The notes under the pieces were generated by a model. The model had not been told where the DNA came from. It ran no database searches and worked only from the letters and a program-made list of their open reading frames with translations. A stretch of DNA of 12,518 nucleotides from an uncultured Erysipelotrichaceae bacterium. GTDB taxonomy: Bacteria; Bacillota_I; Bacilli_A; RF39; UBA660. Position numbers and translations under genes: made by a program. The DNA is taken from positions 1-12,518 of the forward strand of contig CADBRE010000124.1 in the NCBI GenBank assembly GCA_902797005.1, given 5' to 3'. Shown here piece after piece: positions 87 to 7,976 of the stretch. The first letter of the stretch is position 1. Every line of letters starts with the position of its first letter.

Positions 87-1313
87 ATGGGATTTATTAA
101 AGCATTTAGTGGCGCAGTCAGCGGCGCTTTCGCAGATCAATGGAAAGACTTTTTAATGCCTAAGTCTGGAGTTGCAGCATCTGCAGGATTATTTAAAGCA
201 GTACCAAATGGTACTAATAACGGAAGGGGGGAAAATTATAAGGGCAATGATAACATTATTACAAATGGTAGTAAGATAGTTGTACCAGAAGGAACTGCAT
301 TAATAACAGTTCAAGACGGAAAAATTACTGGTGTTGTTACTGAACCTGGAGGATTCATTTTTAGTAGTGATGATGCTAATTCACAATCAGTTTTTGCTGG
401 CAATATACCATTTGGATCAATGTGGGATAAAATGACATTTGGTGGCCAACCAGGTAGTCAACAATTAGCATTTTATGTTAATTTGAAAGAGATTCCAGGA
501 TTAAAAATTGGAACTCAATCACCAGTGCCATATGATGATGCATTCTTAGAAACACAGGTTTCTGTTGTTGCAAGAGGGTCATACTCATTAAAAATTGTTG
601 ATCCTGTTTCATTTGTTCAAAATTATGTTCCTGTTAAATATTTACAACCGGAATCTTTAGATTTTGACTTTGCAGATATGGATAACGAGGCCGGAGAACA
701 ATTATTTACAGAGGTAGTATCATGTCTTGGAGGAGCATTCACAGCTTATTCAAATGACGCAGAACATGGTGGAAGACTATCTGGAATAATGCAACATCAA
801 GATGATTTCGCCTTGACATTAAGTGGTGAAGTTGAAAATCATTATCAATGGAAAAGTACTAGAGGGTTAGAAATCGTAAGAGTTGCTATTAATGTTGAAT
901 ATGATGAAAAAACTCAAGCATTACTTGACACTGTTAGAGAAGACGATGTTGAAATCAGAAGAGCAAAGCGTATGGGCGCTGCTTATTCAAACAATATGCC
1001 TGGAATGATGGCTGCTGCTAGTGGACAAGCCATGCAAAGTGCTGCATCTAATGAAAATGGTGCGATGATGGGATTTATGGGAATGAATATGGCCCAGAAT
1101 CAAGGATCTAACATGCTTAACACTGTAAATCAAATGAATACTCAACCAGCTTCAGTTCAAACTACAGAATCAAATGTAAACGTTGCTAGTGAGTCAACAG
1201 TTGCTAGTGAAGACCCAATGGCAAAACTAGCTAATGCCAAAAAGATGCTTGATGCTGGATTAATAACTGAAGAAGACTACAATAGTTTAAAATCACAATT
1301 GTTAGGACTATAG
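87..1313 (+). CDS. SPFH-domain protein, COG4260/YdjI type, with C-terminal SHOCT motif
   Basis: A 408-residue protein of the stomatin/prohibitin/flotillin superfamily, which forms membrane-associated scaffolds. The N-terminus (GFIKAFSGAVSG, then DQWKDFLMPK) and the following NGSKIVVPEGTALITVQDGK stretch are typical of the YdjI/COG4260 'virion core-like' subfamily. The SPFH core spans roughly residues 50-300. Residues 300-360 form a low-complexity Met/Ala/Asn/Gln-rich linker. Residues 376-408 (DPMAKLANAKKMLDAG, then LITEEDYNSLKSQLL) are a SHOCT oligomerisation motif. COG4260 members usually end in a zinc ribbon, which is absent here; the next gene supplies two. No transmembrane helix is evident, so membrane association is presumably peripheral. 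The start is supported by AGGAGGT at 73-79, seven bases before the ATG. It is the first gene of a six-gene operon. In B. subtilis, YdjI with YdjG and YdjH links PspA to the membrane; a similar role here is inference. Confidence 0.9.
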   Translation: MGFIKAFSGAVSGAFADQWKDFLMPKSGVAASAGLFKAVPNGTNNGRGENYKGNDNIITNGSKIVVPEGTALITVQDGKITGVVTEPGGFIFSSDDANSQSVFAGNIPFGSMWDKMTFGGQPGSQQLAFYVNLKEIPGLKIGTQSPVPYDDAFLETQVSVVARGSYSLKIVDPVSFVQNYVPVKYLQPESLDFDFADMDNEAGEQLFTEVVSCLGGAFTAYSNDAEHGGRLSGIMQHQDDFALTLSGEVENHYQWKSTRGLEIVRVAINVEYDEKTQALLDTVREDDVEIRRAKRMGAAYSNNMPGMMAAASGQAMQSAASNENGAMMGFMGMNMAQNQGSNMLNTVNQMNTQPASVQTTESNVNVASESTVASEDPMAKLANAKKMLDAGLITEEDYNSLKSQLLGL

Positions 1314-1317
1314 AGCT

Positions 1318-2751
1318 ATGGATGAAGAGTTAAAAGCCAATAGCTCTCTTTCTGATGTAAATGAAACTGTAGATAATGTTCAAAACTCTGTAAAAATTGT
1401 TCAAACTGATACAGATGCAAAAGATGGGCAAAATAAATGCCCTAAATGTGGGGCAACTGATATTTCACTTAGCGCGAAAAGTGGAAACCTAAGATGCAAC
1501 TATTGCCGTTTTGAGTTTCCAGCACAGAAAGTTGAAGGATTAGAAACTGATATAAGTAATTTAACTGGTGAAGTTATTGCATCTGGTTCATCTGATATTA
1601 GTGAAGATGCAAACAACATTATTACATTAAAGTGTTCTAGTTGTGGAGCAGAGGTGGTTATAGATACTGCCAATGCTCCTCAAGCTAGATGCCACTGGTG
1701 TCGAAATACTTTATCAATTAATCAGCAGATTCCTAATGGGTCAATTCCAGATACTGTTTTGCCTTTCAAATTATCAAAAGAAGAAGCACAATCTGAGATT
1801 GAAAAATTTGTGGGAAAAAGAAAGTTCTTTGCACACCCTAAGTTTAAAGAAGAATTTACTACTAATAATATAATGGGAGTTTACTTTCCATATATGTTAG
1901 TAGACATTAATGCACATGCATATTTAAATGGAGAAGGTGAACATGAAAAAAGAAGATATACCAGAGGAGAAGGAAATAACAGAAGAACATATTATGATGC
2001 TGATGTTTATGAAGTAACAAGAGACTTTGATATAAGCATTAAAGGTTTATCTATTGAATCAAGCGCAGATAGGCTTAATACTACATCTAAAGATAAAACA
2101 AATAATATAATAAACTCTATAATGCCGTTTGATACAGAAAACTTAGTTAAGTTTAATGCAAATTACATTAATGGATTTACATCTGAAAAAAGAGATACTA
2201 ATATTGAAGAACTAAAACCTTTAGTAAAAACTAAAGCAGAAGATATTGCGAGATTTGCTGCAAATGATTCATTAAACAATTATGATAGAGGAGTTCATTG
2301 GTCTGACGAAAGGTTAGACGTAAAAGGACAACAATGGCAATCATCATATTTGCCAGTCTGGCTATATAGCTATCAAGAAGAAAATAAAGGTAAGAAACTG
2401 CTTCATTATGTAGCAGTAAATGCAAGAACAAAAGAAACTATGGGTAGTGTTCCTATTCATATTCCTAAACTTATTGGAATTTCAATTATAGTTGAAATTA
2501 TTGCAATAATATTAATGCTATTTACAGATTGGGATTATGATTGGATATTCTTATCAGCAGGATTCATATATTATTTTGCTATTTATTCTAGATATAGAAA
2601 TCAAAGTGCTAGACACATGCACGAAGTTGAAACAAAAAAACAAATAAATAATTTAATACAAAATGATGTTTATAAGGGGACCAGAACAGGTCTTACCAAT
2701 TCAAAAATGTCAAATGCCAATAACGATAAAGTAAATGGCTTAAACAGATAG
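1318..2751 (+). CDS. YdjG-like membrane protein with two N-terminal zinc ribbons
   Basis: A 477-residue protein resembling the 'TFIIB-type zinc ribbon-containing protein' family (B. subtilis YdjG). After an acidic, polar leader of about 40 residues come two zinc ribbons: C41/C44 with C60/C63, and C106/C109 with C125/C128. Residues about 140-385 form a large soluble domain rich in Lys, Asp and Asn, with an Arg/Tyr-rich patch near residues 210-225. Two hydrophobic helices follow at about 387-402 and 409-424, separated by an acidic Trp-rich turn (DWDYDW), and a polar tail ends the protein. The soluble part and zinc ribbons are probably cytoplasmic, with the helices forming a hairpin in the membrane. 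The start lies four bases after the SPFH stop codon, with the AGGA of its ribosome site inside the preceding gene, so translational coupling is likely. The zinc ribbons probably mediate protein contacts; no enzymatic motif is visible. Confidence 0.85.
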   Translation: MDEELKANSSLSDVNETVDNVQNSVKIVQTDTDAKDGQNKCPKCGATDISLSAKSGNLRCNYCRFEFPAQKVEGLETDISNLTGEVIASGSSDISEDANNIITLKCSSCGAEVVIDTANAPQARCHWCRNTLSINQQIPNGSIPDTVLPFKLSKEEAQSEIEKFVGKRKFFAHPKFKEEFTTNNIMGVYFPYMLVDINAHAYLNGEGEHEKRRYTRGEGNNRRTYYDADVYEVTRDFDISIKGLSIESSADRLNTTSKDKTNNIINSIMPFDTENLVKFNANYINGFTSEKRDTNIEELKPLVKTKAEDIARFAANDSLNNYDRGVHWSDERLDVKGQQWQSSYLPVWLYSYQEENKGKKLLHYVAVNARTKETMGSVPIHIPKLIGISIIVEIIAIILMLFTDWDYDWIFLSAGFIYYFAIYSRYRNQSARHMHEVETKKQINNLIQNDVYKGTRTGLTNSKMSNANNDKVNGLNR

Positions 2752-2760
2752 GAGTAAAAA

Positions 2761-3495
2761 ATGGAAATAATTAATAATTTAAAAAATAAAAGAATTTTGG
2801 GATTGATAGGCATAATAAGTCTATTACTAGGTGTTATGACACCATATATAATTATAACAGTATTTGGAATTTCACAGTCCCTATCTCTATGGAGTTACTG
2901 GGAAGGAAAAGTAATATTTTTATTAACAATAGCTAATGTTTTATTTATATTTAAAGATTATGTGGAAAAATATGTTTCTCAAGCATTTAATTCAAATATA
3001 GGATCAAAAATAAAAAATGCGAGTCCTAAAATGTCACTAATACCAACAATATTAGTTGTAGTATTCATTATTTATGTAAATACTACAATCAGCACTGATT
3101 CAGCATTCTTCAAACATGGAATTGGATTTTGGTTACTATGGTTAGGCATAGTTGCACTTGTATTACATGCAATTATATATAAAGGTAATGGCGAAACTGA
3201 GAATGTTATTATGGCATCAAATACACCTAACCAAAACTATAATTATTTACAAAATCAAGAATTTAATAACAATAATATTCAATCACAACAAACAAATCAA
3301 AGCATTAGCAATAATAATATGGGCCAATACACTAATGAAGTTAATCAAAATTCATTTGTTAATACTCAAGCAGTTGTAAATGCAAATCCAATTGCTAATA
3401 ATACTACACCGAGCTTTAAATATTGCACAGCATGTGGTACTCAGCTAAATCAAACTGATACTGTATGCAGTAATTGTGGTAAGCAAATAATGTAA
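2761..3495 (+). CDS. Four-helix membrane protein with Asn/Gln-rich tail and C-terminal zinc ribbon
   Basis: A 244-residue protein that I do not recognise as a named family. Hydrophobic segments at about 12-34, 47-64, 92-107 and 119-140 suggest four transmembrane helices. They are followed by about 60 residues very rich in Asn and Gln (about 155-215), which looks disordered. The chain ends in a zinc ribbon with C222/C225 and C236/C239 (CTACG, then CSNCG), of the zinc_ribbon_2 type often found at the ends of Firmicute membrane proteins. With four helices both termini should lie on the same side, most simply the cytoplasm, where the zinc ribbon could contact the neighbouring SPFH and zinc-ribbon proteins. 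AGGAG at 2750-2754 overlaps the stop codon of the previous gene and lies six bases before this ATG. By position and type it may play the part of YdjH in the B. subtilis module, but similarity was not tested. Confidence 0.75.
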   Translation: MEIINNLKNKRILGLIGIISLLLGVMTPYIIITVFGISQSLSLWSYWEGKVIFLLTIANVLFIFKDYVEKYVSQAFNSNIGSKIKNASPKMSLIPTILVVVFIIYVNTTISTDSAFFKHGIGFWLLWLGIVALVLHAIIYKGNGETENVIMASNTPNQNYNYLQNQEFNNNNIQSQQTNQSISNNNMGQYTNEVNQNSFVNTQAVVNANPIANNTTPSFKYCTACGTQLNQTDTVCSNCGKQIM

Positions 3496-3516
3496 AATCA
3501 ATTAAAGGAGGATAAG

Positions 3517-4467
3517 ATGTCTAAAGTAAAAAAAACAATATTAATAATAATTGTGTTAATTGCACTAGGTTTATCAGGAATGATATTCTCATTTTTATTA
3601 ACGGATGAAGAACGTGGTGTTAAAAAGATGATTGAAGCGGATTCAACTTTTGAACGCACTGAACAAGGGTATGCCCTTAAGGATGCGCAGGGGAATGTAC
3701 TAATTGATAATTTAGCTTCTCCGGGATTCTTTTGTAACGGTTTCGCAAAAGTTAGAAACAACAACGGCGAACACGGAATCATAAACAGTAAAGGAGAAAT
3801 GTTAGTAGAATTTGGAAAGTATAAATATATTTTTCAATATTCAAACTGGGGTGGCGTACATTATTGTTTCTATGATGCAACCATAGAAAATCCATATCAA
3901 AGCGTAATTCTAAAGTATAATGGAGAAATACTATACAAAGATGACGAAGATATATTTTTAGATAATGTAAAATTAAAGACATATTATGACAACAGGTTTG
4001 CAGTTTTAGAAACTAAAGATAGTTTTAGACTAATTGATTTTACTGGGGAAACATTTGAAACATTTAAAAAGTCAAGTGAAGATTCATCAATAACTATAGA
4101 TAGAGAAGAAGCTAAAGATTATATATCTGTAACCTTTGAAGATACAACCATTATTTATAGCTTAAAAACTTTTAAACCGTACTTTGGACCTATAAAAGGC
4201 ACTTACAAGATAGAAGGGTTTAATACTACACGAGAGACTGAAATATTATTTGGTATTGAAGGTAAAGAGAAAACTCATGAATATATGATAGTGGGCGATC
4301 AAGAAGACTCTGGATCTGTTTATTATCTTTATGATGGAAAAGTAAGATTTGAAAAAGATAATTGTAAACTGCCATTGCTAAGAAATAGAGTATTAAGTTG
4401 CACTACTAATTCAAATCGAGTTTATTATGATGAGTATGGAAAAATGGTAGATGGTGATAATTCATGA
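3517..4467 (+). CDS. Membrane-anchored protein with WG-like beta repeat
   Basis: A 316-residue protein with a single N-terminal hydrophobic helix (about residues 7-28) preceded by Lys residues (SKVKK). This predicts an N-in, C-out signal anchor with the rest of the protein outside the membrane. No lipobox is present. Residues about 75-105 (GFAKVRNNNGEHGIINSKGE) match the pattern of a degenerate WG repeat, in which a 'G-hAkV-x-n-G-x-h-Gfid-x-G' unit forms beta hairpins; the usual Trp is replaced by His. The remainder is rich in Tyr, Phe, Asp and Glu and looks all-beta, with further possible 'Y-K-I' and 'G-K-V-R-F' strand units. No catalytic motif is visible. A clear AAAGGAGG at 3504-3511 lies five bases before the ATG. 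The TGA stop overlaps the next start (ATGA at 4464-4467), so the two are translationally coupled. It is probably the extracytoplasmic partner of the operon. Confidence 0.7.
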   Translation: MSKVKKTILIIIVLIALGLSGMIFSFLLTDEERGVKKMIEADSTFERTEQGYALKDAQGNVLIDNLASPGFFCNGFAKVRNNNGEHGIINSKGEMLVEFGKYKYIFQYSNWGGVHYCFYDATIENPYQSVILKYNGEILYKDDEDIFLDNVKLKTYYDNRFAVLETKDSFRLIDFTGETFETFKKSSEDSSITIDREEAKDYISVTFEDTTIIYSLKTFKPYFGPIKGTYKIEGFNTTRETEILFGIEGKEKTHEYMIVGDQEDSGSVYYLYDGKVRFEKDNCKLPLLRNRVLSCTTNSNRVYYDEYGKMVDGDNS

Positions 4468-5027
4468 AAAAGTTTTTAGAATACTTGTGTAGTATGCCAG
4501 TAATATTACTTGTTTTATACTTTATTCCGTTTTTAGGAATATGCTTAATACTATTTAGATATTATATCTATAAAGAAGATAAGTTTTTTAAAGCTCCAGT
4601 AACACTTATTATAGTAAGCCTATTATTGCTTATTCCAAAACTATTAGAATTAATTATAAATTTATCTGGTTTTGGAATTAAAAACGTACCTTATTTAGAG
4701 AAAGTGATTTCTTCAGATATTTACACTAAATTAGTTTCATATAGTAAGACATTAATAATAATTGGAGTAATAACATTAATTGTTTCATATTTACTAAGGG
4801 AATTAATAAAAAAAATGACATCAAAAGTATCTAATGGATTTAATAATTATGTAAAAAAGCAACAAGAACAAGAATACAAGATTGCTAAAGAAAACGACTT
4901 AATAATGCAAGAAAAAAGAGAGAAAGCAAAAAACACACATGCTGTTATCTGCCCGAATTGCGGACATACAAATTTATTAACTGAAGAATATGGAAGATGT
5001 AAGTATTGTAGGAGTAATATCGGGTGA
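4464..5027 (+). CDS. Small membrane protein with three helices and C-terminal zinc ribbon
   Basis: A 187-residue protein of unknown function. Three hydrophobic segments are visible at about 8-35, 42-69 and 97-115. A charged, Gln/Lys/Glu-rich segment follows at about 118-158 and could form a short coiled coil (KKQQEQEYKIAKEND, then MQEKREKAK). A zinc ribbon ends the protein with C163/C166 (CPNCG) and C179/C182 (CKYC). The start overlaps the previous stop as ATGA, with a weak GGTGA at 4453-4457 as the ribosome site, so its translation probably depends on the upstream gene. It repeats the design of the third gene in this operon (a membrane block, a polar spacer and a C-terminal zinc ribbon) without obvious sequence identity. 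The ribbon is probably on the cytoplasmic side next to the positively charged spacer. No enzymatic role is suggested. Confidence 0.7.
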   Translation: MKKFLEYLCSMPVILLVLYFIPFLGICLILFRYYIYKEDKFFKAPVTLIIVSLLLLIPKLLELIINLSGFGIKNVPYLEKVISSDIYTKLVSYSKTLIIIGVITLIVSYLLRELIKKMTSKVSNGFNNYVKKQQEQEYKIAKENDLIMQEKREKAKNTHAVICPNCGHTNLLTEEYGRCKYCRSNIG

Positions 5028-5075
5028 CTTTAGAGAAAGAAGCTTGATAGGAAAGCGATAAAAAGAGGTGAGAAA

Positions 5076-7868
5076 ATGCATTGCGCTAATTGTGGTGCTA
5101 AACAGAATGGAGATGAAACTTATTGTGCAAATTGTGGTTCAATGGTTCAAAAAATAAGCAACAATATAAACCCCAATCAAATAAGCAAAAGTGGAGTTCC
5201 TGAAATTCTTAAAAAAATAGGAAATTTATTATCTCATATTTACGATAAAATAAGAATTATTGCTGGCAAATATAAAAAACGTATTTTGATTATTTTAGCT
5301 ATTTTAACCGTTATATTTATGGTAATGCTTTCATACAACAAATTTATAGGATTTGAAAAGCTAAGTTGGGATGAAACATATTTATATAATAATACGAAAT
5401 ATTTAACTCAATCCACAATAAAACTAGGTGTTAATTTTACTAATGAGCAGAAAATAAATGATATTAAATATGAAACAACTTGTGGTGAATTAATAACTGA
5501 TGGATTAGAATTAACATGGAATTTATCTGATGCCACTGGAAAATGTGAAATAAGAGCTTCGTACAAATTTAAAACTATTTCAAAGACACTGTACGTAATG
5601 GCTTTTGACTTAGAAAACCGTGATTTTGCTTTGGAATATAGTATTAATGAAGACTCAGAAGAAGACTTAGATTTTGATGGCTTAACAAATAAGCAAGAAA
5701 AAGAATACAAAACAAATCCTCAAGTTGCTGATACAGATTTAGATGGATTAGATGATAATTATGAAATATTTACAAGTAAAACTGATCCAAATAAAAAAGA
5801 TTCAGATGATGATGGTTTGAGTGATTATGATGAGATTAAACAAGGATTAGACCCATTGAAAAAGGATTCAAAAGGTGATGGAATTAGTGATGGTGAAAGA
5901 GAATTAACATATAATTATGACTCTGACAAATTAAAAATTTCTATTACTGGAAATGGCAACATATCAAGTACAATAGCGCAGATTAATTCAAACACAAAAA
6001 TTAGTAGTAAACTAGGAATTATAGATAATCTTTATACATTATATACAGATGGCACAATAAAAGAAGCAACATTAACAATTACATATACTGATGAAGAATT
6101 AGCAGAATTCGAAATAAATGAAGAGGATTTATCAATTTATTATTATAATGACAAAGAACAAAAATATGAAAAGATAGAAAGTACAATAGACAAAGAGAGC
6201 AAGACTGTTAGTGCGAAGCTAAATCACTTTTCAAATTATGTGCTAGGGGATTCTTCAAAAGTAAAAGAAACAAATACTAATCAATTACTATTCATACTAG
6301 ACAATTCATGGAGTATGTATAATAACGAACAGTATAAAAAAATTACAGGTAAAGATTATTATGGAGGATTATTTGGAACGCTGGAATTGGCTGGATATGA
6401 CTCAGAAGGCTTAAGGTTTACTTTAACAAGCAATCTAATATCAAAACTATCTTCTAAAAATTTTCAAATTGGCTTATCTGAATTTAGAAGTGACTATGCC
6501 AATGCAGCACCAATTGGAAGTGACAGCGAAACATTAGAGAAACAATTAGCCAAAATGAATGGGAACTTTATTACAAGCATCGCTGGAACTGATATAGAAT
6601 ATGCACTAAAAGAAGGCATAAAAGAGTTTTCGAAAGAGAGTGACAATAAGTATATAATTATTCTTACAGATGGAGAAGATAGTAGCTTAAGTAGTTATAC
6701 AAAGTCTATTATAGAAAAAGCCATTTCAAAAGATGTCAAAATTTGCTCCATTGGATTTGGCGGCGGGACCAATAATGTTGAGCTATCAAAGATTTCTAAT
6801 GGAACAGGGTGTAAGTTTTATTCATCAAGTAATGCAATGGGATTAGTAGAATTGTTTAATAATTTAGAAACTGAATTAAATGACAATTTGGTAGATGTTA
6901 CATCAGATAATAAACCGGATGGGATACTTTTAGCAGACAGCGGATTTGTTGTTAATCGAGATGGGTTTTCGTTTGGCAATTATGGGTCTAATTTAACTAA
7001 TGGCCATTGCTATGGAATGGCTACGGTTGCAGAATTATATTATAAAAAACTTCTTCCATTAAAGATGGAGTCAAAAACAGTTAACAATCTAAAATCTTAT
7101 GCTTATAATCTTGAGAATACATATTTTAAAAACTATTCAAATTTATATGATTATAAATTAAAAACAAATGTATTAAAGTATACTTTTGGCTATGAGATAT
7201 TTGATGAAGAACAACCTGCAGATCTTCAATATTTAAATGGAGAAACATTAGGAATAAATGAGATATATAAAAAAGAAATGCAAAACTCAGGTTTTTATGA
7301 TTTTTATAAAGAGAAGTCTAAGCTGGATAGTAAAGCTCAACTTAAAAAAAGAGGCTTTACGTACTCCGATGTAGAAAACTATATCATTAATGAAGACCAC
7401 ATGCAAAAAAGCTCAATAATAGAAAACTCAGATCTACAATTATTAAATGCAATTTATGCAGCGTTCATAAGGCAAAAAAAAGTCGCGCACTATGCTTCAT
7501 CTTCAAACTTTATAATGTGGTTAAGAAATGTGATAGGAACTGAGCAAACTGATTATGTTGGTGCAACAGGATTTATAAATATTCTAAAAGAAAGATTAAA
7601 TGATAAAGATGCACCCGTTATATCATCAAGTTACAGTGGAGGATTACACGCGATAAATGCAATTAGTTTGGCGCAAGATATAGAAAATCCAAATGTATAT
7701 TATATTGGCGTTTATGACAACAATTACCCGGGAGAAAAAAGATATGTAGATGTGGAATGTAATAAAAACACTTGTGTAACTAAAGCTAACAGTTATTACA
7801 CAGCTTCCGGCGAGCCAATAAGAATAACACCTTCGTTAGAATATGATTTAGAATACTTTAATGAATAA
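5076..7868 (+). CDS. Large single-pass surface protein: zinc ribbon, TM, TSP3-type repeats, ZU5/GAIN-like region, VWA, papain-like domain
   Basis: A 930-residue multidomain protein. Residues 1-22 are a zinc ribbon (C3/C6, C17/C20). After a basic stretch (KYKKR) a single helix spans about 70-87, predicting the N-terminus inside and the rest outside. Residues 95-180 look Ig-like, with C136 and C157 able to form a disulfide. Four thrombospondin type 3-like calcium repeats begin at D197, D219, D242 and D264, spaced 22-23 residues apart; the last is degenerate (DSKGDG). Residues about 285-395 form a beta domain ending in the motif H384-F-S. The VWA domain (about 404-600) has a complete MIDAS: D409-x-S411-x-S413, T505 and D532. 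The C-terminal domain (about 610-930) has NGHC645YGM, GGLH858A and VYD881NN, the pattern of a papain-like Cys-His-Asp/Asn triad; C895 and C900 may pair. AGAGGTG at 5064-5070 marks the start. A role as a surface sensor or protease is inferred from the domains. Confidence 0.85.
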   Translation: MHCANCGAKQNGDETYCANCGSMVQKISNNINPNQISKSGVPEILKKIGNLLSHIYDKIRIIAGKYKKRILIILAILTVIFMVMLSYNKFIGFEKLSWDETYLYNNTKYLTQSTIKLGVNFTNEQKINDIKYETTCGELITDGLELTWNLSDATGKCEIRASYKFKTISKTLYVMAFDLENRDFALEYSINEDSEEDLDFDGLTNKQEKEYKTNPQVADTDLDGLDDNYEIFTSKTDPNKKDSDDDGLSDYDEIKQGLDPLKKDSKGDGISDGERELTYNYDSDKLKISITGNGNISSTIAQINSNTKISSKLGIIDNLYTLYTDGTIKEATLTITYTDEELAEFEINEEDLSIYYYNDKEQKYEKIESTIDKESKTVSAKLNHFSNYVLGDSSKVKETNTNQLLFILDNSWSMYNNEQYKKITGKDYYGGLFGTLELAGYDSEGLRFTLTSNLISKLSSKNFQIGLSEFRSDYANAAPIGSDSETLEKQLAKMNGNFITSIAGTDIEYALKEGIKEFSKESDNKYIIILTDGEDSSLSSYTKSIIEKAISKDVKICSIGFGGGTNNVELSKISNGTGCKFYSSSNAMGLVELFNNLETELNDNLVDVTSDNKPDGILLADSGFVVNRDGFSFGNYGSNLTNGHCYGMATVAELYYKKLLPLKMESKTVNNLKSYAYNLENTYFKNYSNLYDYKLKTNVLKYTFGYEIFDEEQPADLQYLNGETLGINEIYKKEMQNSGFYDFYKEKSKLDSKAQLKKRGFTYSDVENYIINEDHMQKSSIIENSDLQLLNAIYAAFIRQKKVAHYASSSNFIMWLRNVIGTEQTDYVGATGFINILKERLNDKDAPVISSSYSGGLHAINAISLAQDIENPNVYYIGVYDNNYPGEKRYVDVECNKNTCVTKANSYYTASGEPIRITPSLEYDLEYFNE

Positions 7869-7897: not shown

Positions 7898-7927
7898 AAA
7901 AACAAGATTTAAAAAGTCTTGTTTTTT
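7898..7927 (+). terminator. Rho-independent terminator closing the SPFH operon
   Basis: AAAAACAAGA (7898-7907) pairs exactly with TCTTGTTTTT (7917-7926) around a nine-base loop, and the right arm runs into a T tract (7922-7927). The stem is AT-rich, as expected in this genome. It lies 30 bases after the stop of the large surface protein and directly before the next promoter, so it separates the two operons. Confidence 0.8.
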
Positions 7928-7957: not shown

Positions 7958-7976
7958 GAAAACGAAAATCATTTTC
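7958..7976 (+). promoter_or_regulatory. Fur-family operator box over the transcription start
   Basis: GAAAACGAAAATCATTTTC matches the 19-base Fur consensus GATAATGATAATCATTATC at 15 of 19 positions. Its right-hand part is a perfect 6-1-6 palindrome (GAAAAT-C-ATTTTC, 7964-7976), which fits the 7-1-7 form of Firmicute Fur, PerR and Zur sites. A wider dyad (TTGAAAA at 7956-7962 with TTTTCAA at 7972-7978) suggests overlapping sites. It starts two bases after the -10 element, so bound repressor would block transcription. The gene directly downstream encodes a Fur-family protein, so autoregulation is the simple reading. Which metal is sensed is not shown by the box. Confidence 0.8.

Follow-up and report, generated by a model that had tools for sequence, protein, structure and literature searches.

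A PspA-free SPFH/zinc-ribbon gene pair followed by a ribbon-tagged, predicted surface VWA-papain-like protein in an uncultured Erysipelotrichaceae bacterium

The window analysed here is a stretch of 12,518 nucleotides (nt) from an uncultured Erysipelotrichaceae bacterium (positions 1 to 12,518 of contig CADBRE010000124.1, assembly GCA_902797005.1), a relative of gut Bacilli represented by a metagenome-assembled genome (MAG; G000) that is 90.67 % complete; its relatives, by their names, come from goat-cecum and 'Lapin' MAGs. Six open reading frames (ORFs), named A to F, lie on its + strand between positions 87 and 7868, with successive gaps of 4, 9, 21, -4 and 48 nt. They encode an SPFH/Band_7_1 protein with a C-terminal SHOCT-like tail and no transmembrane segment (gene A, 87..1313), a protein of YdjG-like architecture with two zinc ribbons, a middle domain and one or more C-terminal hydrophobic segments (gene B, 1318..2751), a protein with three to four transmembrane helices followed by a C-terminal zinc ribbon (gene C, 2761..3495), a protein with an N-terminal transmembrane anchor and a divergent WG-repeat-like outer part (gene D, 3517..4467), a protein with three transmembrane helices and again a C-terminal zinc ribbon (gene E, 4464..5027), and a large protein in which a zinc ribbon, a transmembrane helix, TSP3 repeats, a VWA domain and a papain-like protease domain follow one another (gene F, 5076..7868). 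The run is closed by an intrinsic terminator at 7898..7926 (+), a hairpin ending in a T run 5' of a Fur-family gene, with a computed free energy of -11.8 kcal/mol and a z-score of -3.9, none of 200 shuffles being equally good. A simple terminator scanner, whose rule is three G-C pairs, misses this hairpin; its two + strand sites fall inside genes A and B, and no + strand terminator-like site was found between the six genes. The close packing and the single terminator described in the first-pass annotation were in this way confirmed, as were its five zinc ribbons spread over four genes (B, C, E and F) beside membrane segments. The Pfam ribbon models all remained below their curated cut-offs and the ribbons were called from evident CxxC pairs, which start at residues 41 and 106 of B, 222 of C, 163 of E and 3 of F; a hydrophobicity scan gave no helix in A, one in B, three in C, one in D, three in E and one in F, so that all four ribbon proteins are predicted to be membrane proteins. 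Since the first base of the window is also that of the contig and only 86 bases precede A, an upstream promoter or gene would be invisible.

The most elaborate product of the run is F. Its N-terminal zinc ribbon (5079..5141, +) is cytoplasmic by charge, and the transmembrane helix (5283..5339, +) is oriented N-in/C-out by the same measure, six lysine and arginine residues preceding the helix and three following it; the excess has the same direction in 21 of 21 homologues, which upholds the earlier assignment of the ribbon to the inside and the remainder of the protein to the outside. The outer part starts with TSP3-like repeats (5664..5900, +; residues 197-275; PF18884) carrying an invariant ladder of Asp residues, and continues with a VWA domain (6273..6887, +) whose metal-ion-dependent adhesion site (MIDAS) residues are D409, S411, S413, T505 and D532; both Pfam matches lie above their cut-offs (33.2 bits for TSP3, 51.2 bits for VWA PF00092). 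The last part (6888..7865, +; residues 605-930) was folded separately, because fold searches with the whole of F were swamped by VWA matches, and the predicted structure has a papain-like fold with a predicted local distance difference test score (pLDDT) of 92.9, so the VWA-papain-like ending proposed in the first-pass annotation stands. Cys645 (codon 7008..7010, +), His858 (7647-7649) and Asn882 (7719-7721) presumably form the catalytic triad, their roles being assigned from known motifs and not by superposition.

Conservation of these elements was followed in 22 distinct genomes with a near full-length F. The MIDAS residues (DxSxS, T, D) are complete in 22/22 proteins and the Cys-His-Asn triad in 21/22. 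In the exception, the F of G209 (L139, 9170-11944), Ser stands in the place of both the Cys and the Asn while the MIDAS is intact, and this protein is perhaps an inactive protease retained as a binding protein. The ribbon is present in 21 of the 22 and in 114 of 120 listed homologues; these counts are quoted because its invariance in a 56-row alignment, built from 55 of 60 diverse picks, is biased by the omission of five picks, three of which lack it. The F homologues of L135, L138 and L139 have several overlapping N-terminal CxxC ribbon matches and not one. The F of G277 (L137, 9295-11940) adjoins an A-B pair and begins after the ribbon; the same frame contains, upstream, a stop codon and half of a ribbon motif. 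On these predictions F probably carries a surface protein-cutting enzyme, and the activities to which its outer sequence points are proteolysis by the papain-like domain and metal-dependent binding by the VWA domain.

Compared with known proteins, F matches the clan CA proteases streptopain, IdeS and staphopain in fold and in the Cys-His-Asn triad, at an identity of only about 10-13 %, and differs from them in that the papain-like domain is joined to a VWA domain, TSP3 repeats and a membrane anchor; phmmer returned no sequence relative in the PDB at E <= 0.01. TcaA of Staphylococcus aureus is described, in the accessible part of its source, with an intracellular zinc finger, a single transmembrane segment and a remainder predicted there to lie mostly outside, as in F; that part does not mention a VWA/papain portion, and the likeness is one of descriptions, not of sequences (PMC10328498). 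Relative to the BatA/BatB-type VWA proteins, F has an additional protease and ribbon, and its NCBIfam Bat match reaches 26.1 bits against a cut-off of 380. A class-wide profile search for F, run with a threshold of E <= 1e-20 and no more than two scored candidates from each genome, gave matches in 5 of 395 genomes, all of the own family, the share of the 395 lying outside that family being unstated. TSP3/VWA stretches resembling F (25-37 % identity among the ten matches displayed) occur in haloarchaeal, Vibrio and Ruminococcus plasmids, with most of the protease part absent.

At the head of the run, A matches the Band_7_1/SPFH family (PF13421) with 37.1 bits against a cut-off of 24, and its C-terminal tail matches SHOCT (PF09851) with 25.9 bits, below the cut-off of 27. 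This tail was checked by Pfam in two A proteins, the second of which, from G277, scores 35.2 bits and lies above the cut-off. A CxxC scan found no zinc ribbon in the A of the window, and no 19-residue stretch with hydrophobicity above 1.1 was found in it or in the A homologues inspected; in this it differs from the flotillins FloA and FloT, whose SPFH protein has its own membrane anchor. The architecture of A is not new, since band 7 (PF13421) is the commonest partner of SHOCT according to the accessible part of PMC3581485. In B the first ribbon (1435..1506, +) corresponds to PF08271 at residues 40-63, with CxxC pairs from residue 41, and the second (1627..1713, +) to a match with RNA polymerase subunit P at residues 104-132, with CxxC pairs from residue 106. 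The B family is common (6507 of 8000 scored candidates match), and names among the listed homologues include TFIIB-type zinc ribbon-containing protein (P0158) and RPC12/RpoP (P0227). Of the 145 family genomes, 50 have a match to A and 46 a match to B, and these matches are of two kinds. A adjoins B in 14/14 of the genomes with a close-type B, a set from which the B proteins of G139 and G025 (42-46 %) were excluded. Only 30 of the A matches had loci and were typed by tail: 15, the window included, have a SHOCT-like tail (at least 48.9 % identity) and 15 a zinc ribbon (at most 34.3 %), and the two groups lie on opposite sides of a 100/100 branch in a tree that carries a long-branch warning. In two relatives A is preceded by an HTH_3 regulator gene in divergent orientation (L020:2405-2836, - strand; L023:14756-15178, + strand).

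The pair recalls a known system of Bacillus subtilis. There, ydjG and ydjI likewise encode a two-ribbon transmembrane protein with a middle domain and a Band_7_1 SPFH protein (architecture according to the accessible part of PMC11237479), and the accessible part of PMC8581546 describes YdjG/H/I as a stress-induced complex in which YdjI, with YdjG/H, brings PspA to the membrane. The Band_7_1 family profile also matches in B. subtilis, and B was called YdjG-like from architecture alone, that is, two ribbons, a domain and a C-terminal transmembrane segment. Relative to the pspA-ydjGHI operon, the window has no PspA match and no TPM/YdjH partner, its gene order is I-G, surface cargo follows the pair, and A ends in a SHOCT-like tail instead of the C-terminal zinc ribbon of YdjI. 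The likeness to ydjGHI drawn earlier consequently holds in part: the first two genes do resemble YdjI and YdjG, but there is no YdjH/TPM protein and no ribbon on the SPFH protein. A partnership with pspA, also raised earlier, was not borne out, PspA (PF04012) being above its cut-off in 0/145 family genomes, with no match in the own genome and one weak match in G027, although nine of the 14 named control genomes, including E. coli and B. subtilis, do match the same profile. The role of the pair in the window can therefore not simply equal PspA recruitment.

The own family also possesses operons of the ydjGHI kind, which have an SPFH protein and a two-ribbon membrane protein as in the window and, unlike it, a TPM gene alongside. 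In 11 such loci, chosen because all three genes sit close together on one contig, the order on a single strand is G-H-I in nine and I-G-H in two (G111 and G102). The TPM domain (PF04536) is absent from the own genome and occurs in 1/14 genomes with a close B, as against 30/31 genomes with a YdjG-like B; two of the latter (G019 and G043) have a near full-length F, on a different contig. From this split, A-B is by sequence a predicted platform type of its own, TPM-free and distinct from ydjGHI. A mixed operon occurs in G102 (L099), where a TPM gene and a YdjG-like B accompany an SPFH protein with a SHOCT tail. This locus was considered as an intermediate of the two platform types and rejected as such, its A being placed inside the SHOCT-tail clade of the same tree, and it looks like a later mixture.

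In the neighbourhood survey, which comprised the 22 genomes mentioned above, duplicate contigs (L016/G080, L018/G303, L020/G245), a near-copy of L015 (L021), F fragments in G077 and G251 and a split, divergent copy in G110 were omitted; gene-run labels came from simple ORF picking and blastp on one strand with gaps of at most 300 nt, so that small genes may be missed. Of the 22 gene runs around F, 10 include A and B, 11 a Yip1-domain ribbon protein (PF04893 was confirmed in L016), 10 a WG-type protein when D is counted, eight E, five C and four a lipoprotein-like gene. The long order A, B, Yip1-ribbon, WG, C, lipoprotein, F, E recurs in three genomes, one of them with an additional small gene, and shorter versions are found elsewhere. 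Thirteen runs anchored on B contain no F, 11 of them with A adjoining B, and some stop at a contig end (e.g. G110). Two further contigs are relevant to such counts: in G252 the A-B pair is on a separate contig from F, and in Lapin-016 bin38 the contig begins 322 bases 5' of F. The constant six-gene unit of the first-pass annotation is refuted by these 13 runs together with the genomes that have F and no close B (10 of the 22), and what stands is a looser link between F and A-B. This link is statistical: F occurs in 4/14 genomes with the close pair and in 2/131 others (Fisher p = 7.6e-4), or in 3/13 and 2/131 when the own genome is left out (p = 0.005), both comparisons being uncorrected for relatedness. 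Gene fusions lend the link between platform and cargo added weight. Five of the 120 B homologues listed start with a truncated SPFH domain (PF13421; P0162 was rescanned), and in P0010 C is fused to F through one shared ribbon (one contig, three member sequences); P0010 is among the 6 of 120 listed F homologues whose first 70 residues contain no ribbon.

C has three transmembrane helices by scan, its homologues mostly four, and its ribbon lies at 3415..3486 (+; residues 219-242); the ribbon of E is at 4941..5015 (+; residues 160-184). D is no more than weakly WG-like: the protein matches the WG-repeat protein of the relative locus L015 (blastp E 1.65e-8), which itself matches PF14903 at E 6.9e-15, but D against PF14903 gives E 0.16 and 12.5 bits, below the cut-off of 25.6. 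Related operons also contain other proteins. In G089 (L091:8851-11313, - strand) an 820-amino-acid ribbon-transmembrane protein stands in the place of F behind A-B-Yip1-WG; a HELFHH (HExxH) motif was seen in it by eye, and searches gave no Pfam peptidase match and no useful PDB sequence match. Membrane-anchored EF-Tu-like proteins are encoded at L015:12461-13696 and 13713-14642, L133:12902-14029 and L091:7135-8061 (- strand); one has the G domain and domain III, the others domains II-III only, and one has an N-terminal zinc ribbon. The charge around the transmembrane segment suggests that their EF-Tu part is extracellular. A separate, exported paralogue of EF-Tu would be unusual, and nothing on one was found in the literature searched. 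The gene labelled EFTu in G129 is an ordinary-looking EF-Tu gene.

Beyond the terminator follows a separate block encoding a Fur-family protein, ArsP_2, ArsP_1 and DUF1980/TIGR03943. Between 7929 and 7976, before the fur-arsP genes, inspection by eye shows a putative promoter (TTGCAT-16-TATAAT) and, behind it at 7958-7976, a palindrome resembling a Fur box, from which the block is predicted to have, probably, its own metal-regulated promoter.

The reading we prefer, held at a little short of an even chance, is that a PspA-free SPFH platform gathers swappable zinc-ribbon membrane proteins, here F as a surface cysteine protease. A and B would form a sister type of the YdjI/YdjG membrane platform of Bacillus, free of PspA and TPM, in which A may assemble at the cytoplasmic side of the membrane while B, through its two ribbons and C-terminal membrane segment, would hold A there. 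The downstream genes would encode a variable cargo, membrane proteins of which many have a cytoplasmic zinc ribbon, and the ribbons may act as protein-protein contacts that collect this cargo around the platform. F would be the main cargo in the window, a putative surface-tethered cysteine protease whose TSP3 calcium stalk may raise the MIDAS-type VWA domain, this domain gripping a partner and the papain-like domain beside it cutting that partner or a neighbour.

Several observations weigh against this picture. The ten F genomes without a close B (G308, G158, G288, G175, G253, G195, G284, G209, G019 and G043) all encode an F that retains the ribbon, while the F of G277, beside A-B, begins after it; the ribbon of F is therefore independent of this platform type, and the idea that it is a tag strictly dependent on A-B was rejected. 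Zn_Ribbon_1 matches average 4.1 in genomes with the close A-B pair (n=14) and 3.7 in the rest (n=131; p 0.45). They are more frequent in genomes with any A (5.5, n=50) than in those with none (2.8, n=95; p 7e-8), an excess partly inflated because YdjI-type A proteins carry a ribbon themselves; relatedness and genome size are uncorrected in both comparisons. The C-F fusion, resting on one contig, may be an assembly artefact or a rare event, and a SHOCT domain examined elsewhere failed to oligomerise, as reported in the accessible part of PMC3581485.

A rival explanation is that the genes are only transcribed together: A-B would be a general membrane organiser, F, along with the Yip1-ribbon and WG proteins that often adjoin it, an independent surface adhesin-protease inserted behind A-B by chance, and the ribbons structural or metal/redox-sensing elements and not docking ones. 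It draws on the ten F proteins that keep their ribbon with no close B, on the position of F in those ten genomes beside a Yip1-ribbon gene in three and a WG gene in three (four when the ribbon-WG protein of G284 is counted), and on ribbon counts that are no different in the close A-B genomes. The significant co-occurrence of F with the pair, which persists when the own genome is removed, the recurring ordered gene runs and the A-B and C-F fusions speak against it, and we regard it as a serious though less than probable account.

Two other accounts give F another purpose. F might be directed at the host, cutting animal mucosal proteins from the surface of gut Bacilli while the platform merely positions it. 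We consider this unlikely, as a fold similarity at the identity given above is uninformative on the target, no sequence relative was found in the PDB at the threshold used, and the cell's own surface proteins are equally possible targets. Slightly less likely still is an envelope-stress sensor, as suggested earlier, in which damage would be sensed outside by the VWA/papain-like part and reported to the SPFH scaffold by way of the ribbons: the stress-induced YdjG/H/I complex of B. subtilis (PMC8581546, accessible part) and the divergent HTH_3 regulator ahead of A in L020 and L023 would fit it, but PspA is missing above cut-off throughout the family, G000 has no TPM protein, the intact protease triad points to an enzyme, and with the contig starting so close to A no stress promoter is visible.

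Other origins and settings were set aside. A mobile-element origin is not supported: no F relative was confirmed in viral contigs, and 19 plasmid records match, all at <60 % identity and none spanning 80 % of F in one place. Nor is a part in anti-phage defence, as the PADLOC matches of B and E, to PDC-S64, were weak and confined to the ribbons. A wall-less cell was rejected, transpeptidase domains being found in 18 of 20 genomes searched, the own genome included.

Parts of the preferred arrangement are already known, namely SPFH-SHOCT proteins, YdjG-like proteins, proteins with a ribbon, a transmembrane segment and an outer domain such as TcaA, papain-like enzymes and VWA domains. The arrangement itself appears new: in the open-licence literature, a scope that leaves out preprints and most subscription papers, neither an SPFH pair that lacks PspA and TPM and is joined to interchangeable surface cargo tagged by ribbons nor a ribbon-transmembrane-TSP3-VWA-papain architecture was found, in agreement with the earlier remark that no described system has this composition. 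In its widest form, which we put forward as possible but rather doubtful, the proposal is that some gut Bacilli reuse a YdjI/YdjG-type platform, without PspA and YdjH, as a docking base for swappable, ribbon-joined surface proteins (a papain-like protease with a VWA domain, an HExxH protein, a WG-repeat protein and an exported EF-Tu-like domain), a microdomain system that would build clusters of surface enzymes. If the preferred reading is true, it would show an SPFH/zinc-ribbon platform working without the ESCRT-III-like PspA, what ribbon-tagged membrane proteins do in Firmicutes would become testable as docking of the ribbon to the SPFH platform, and a surface protease family of gut bacteria would be defined.

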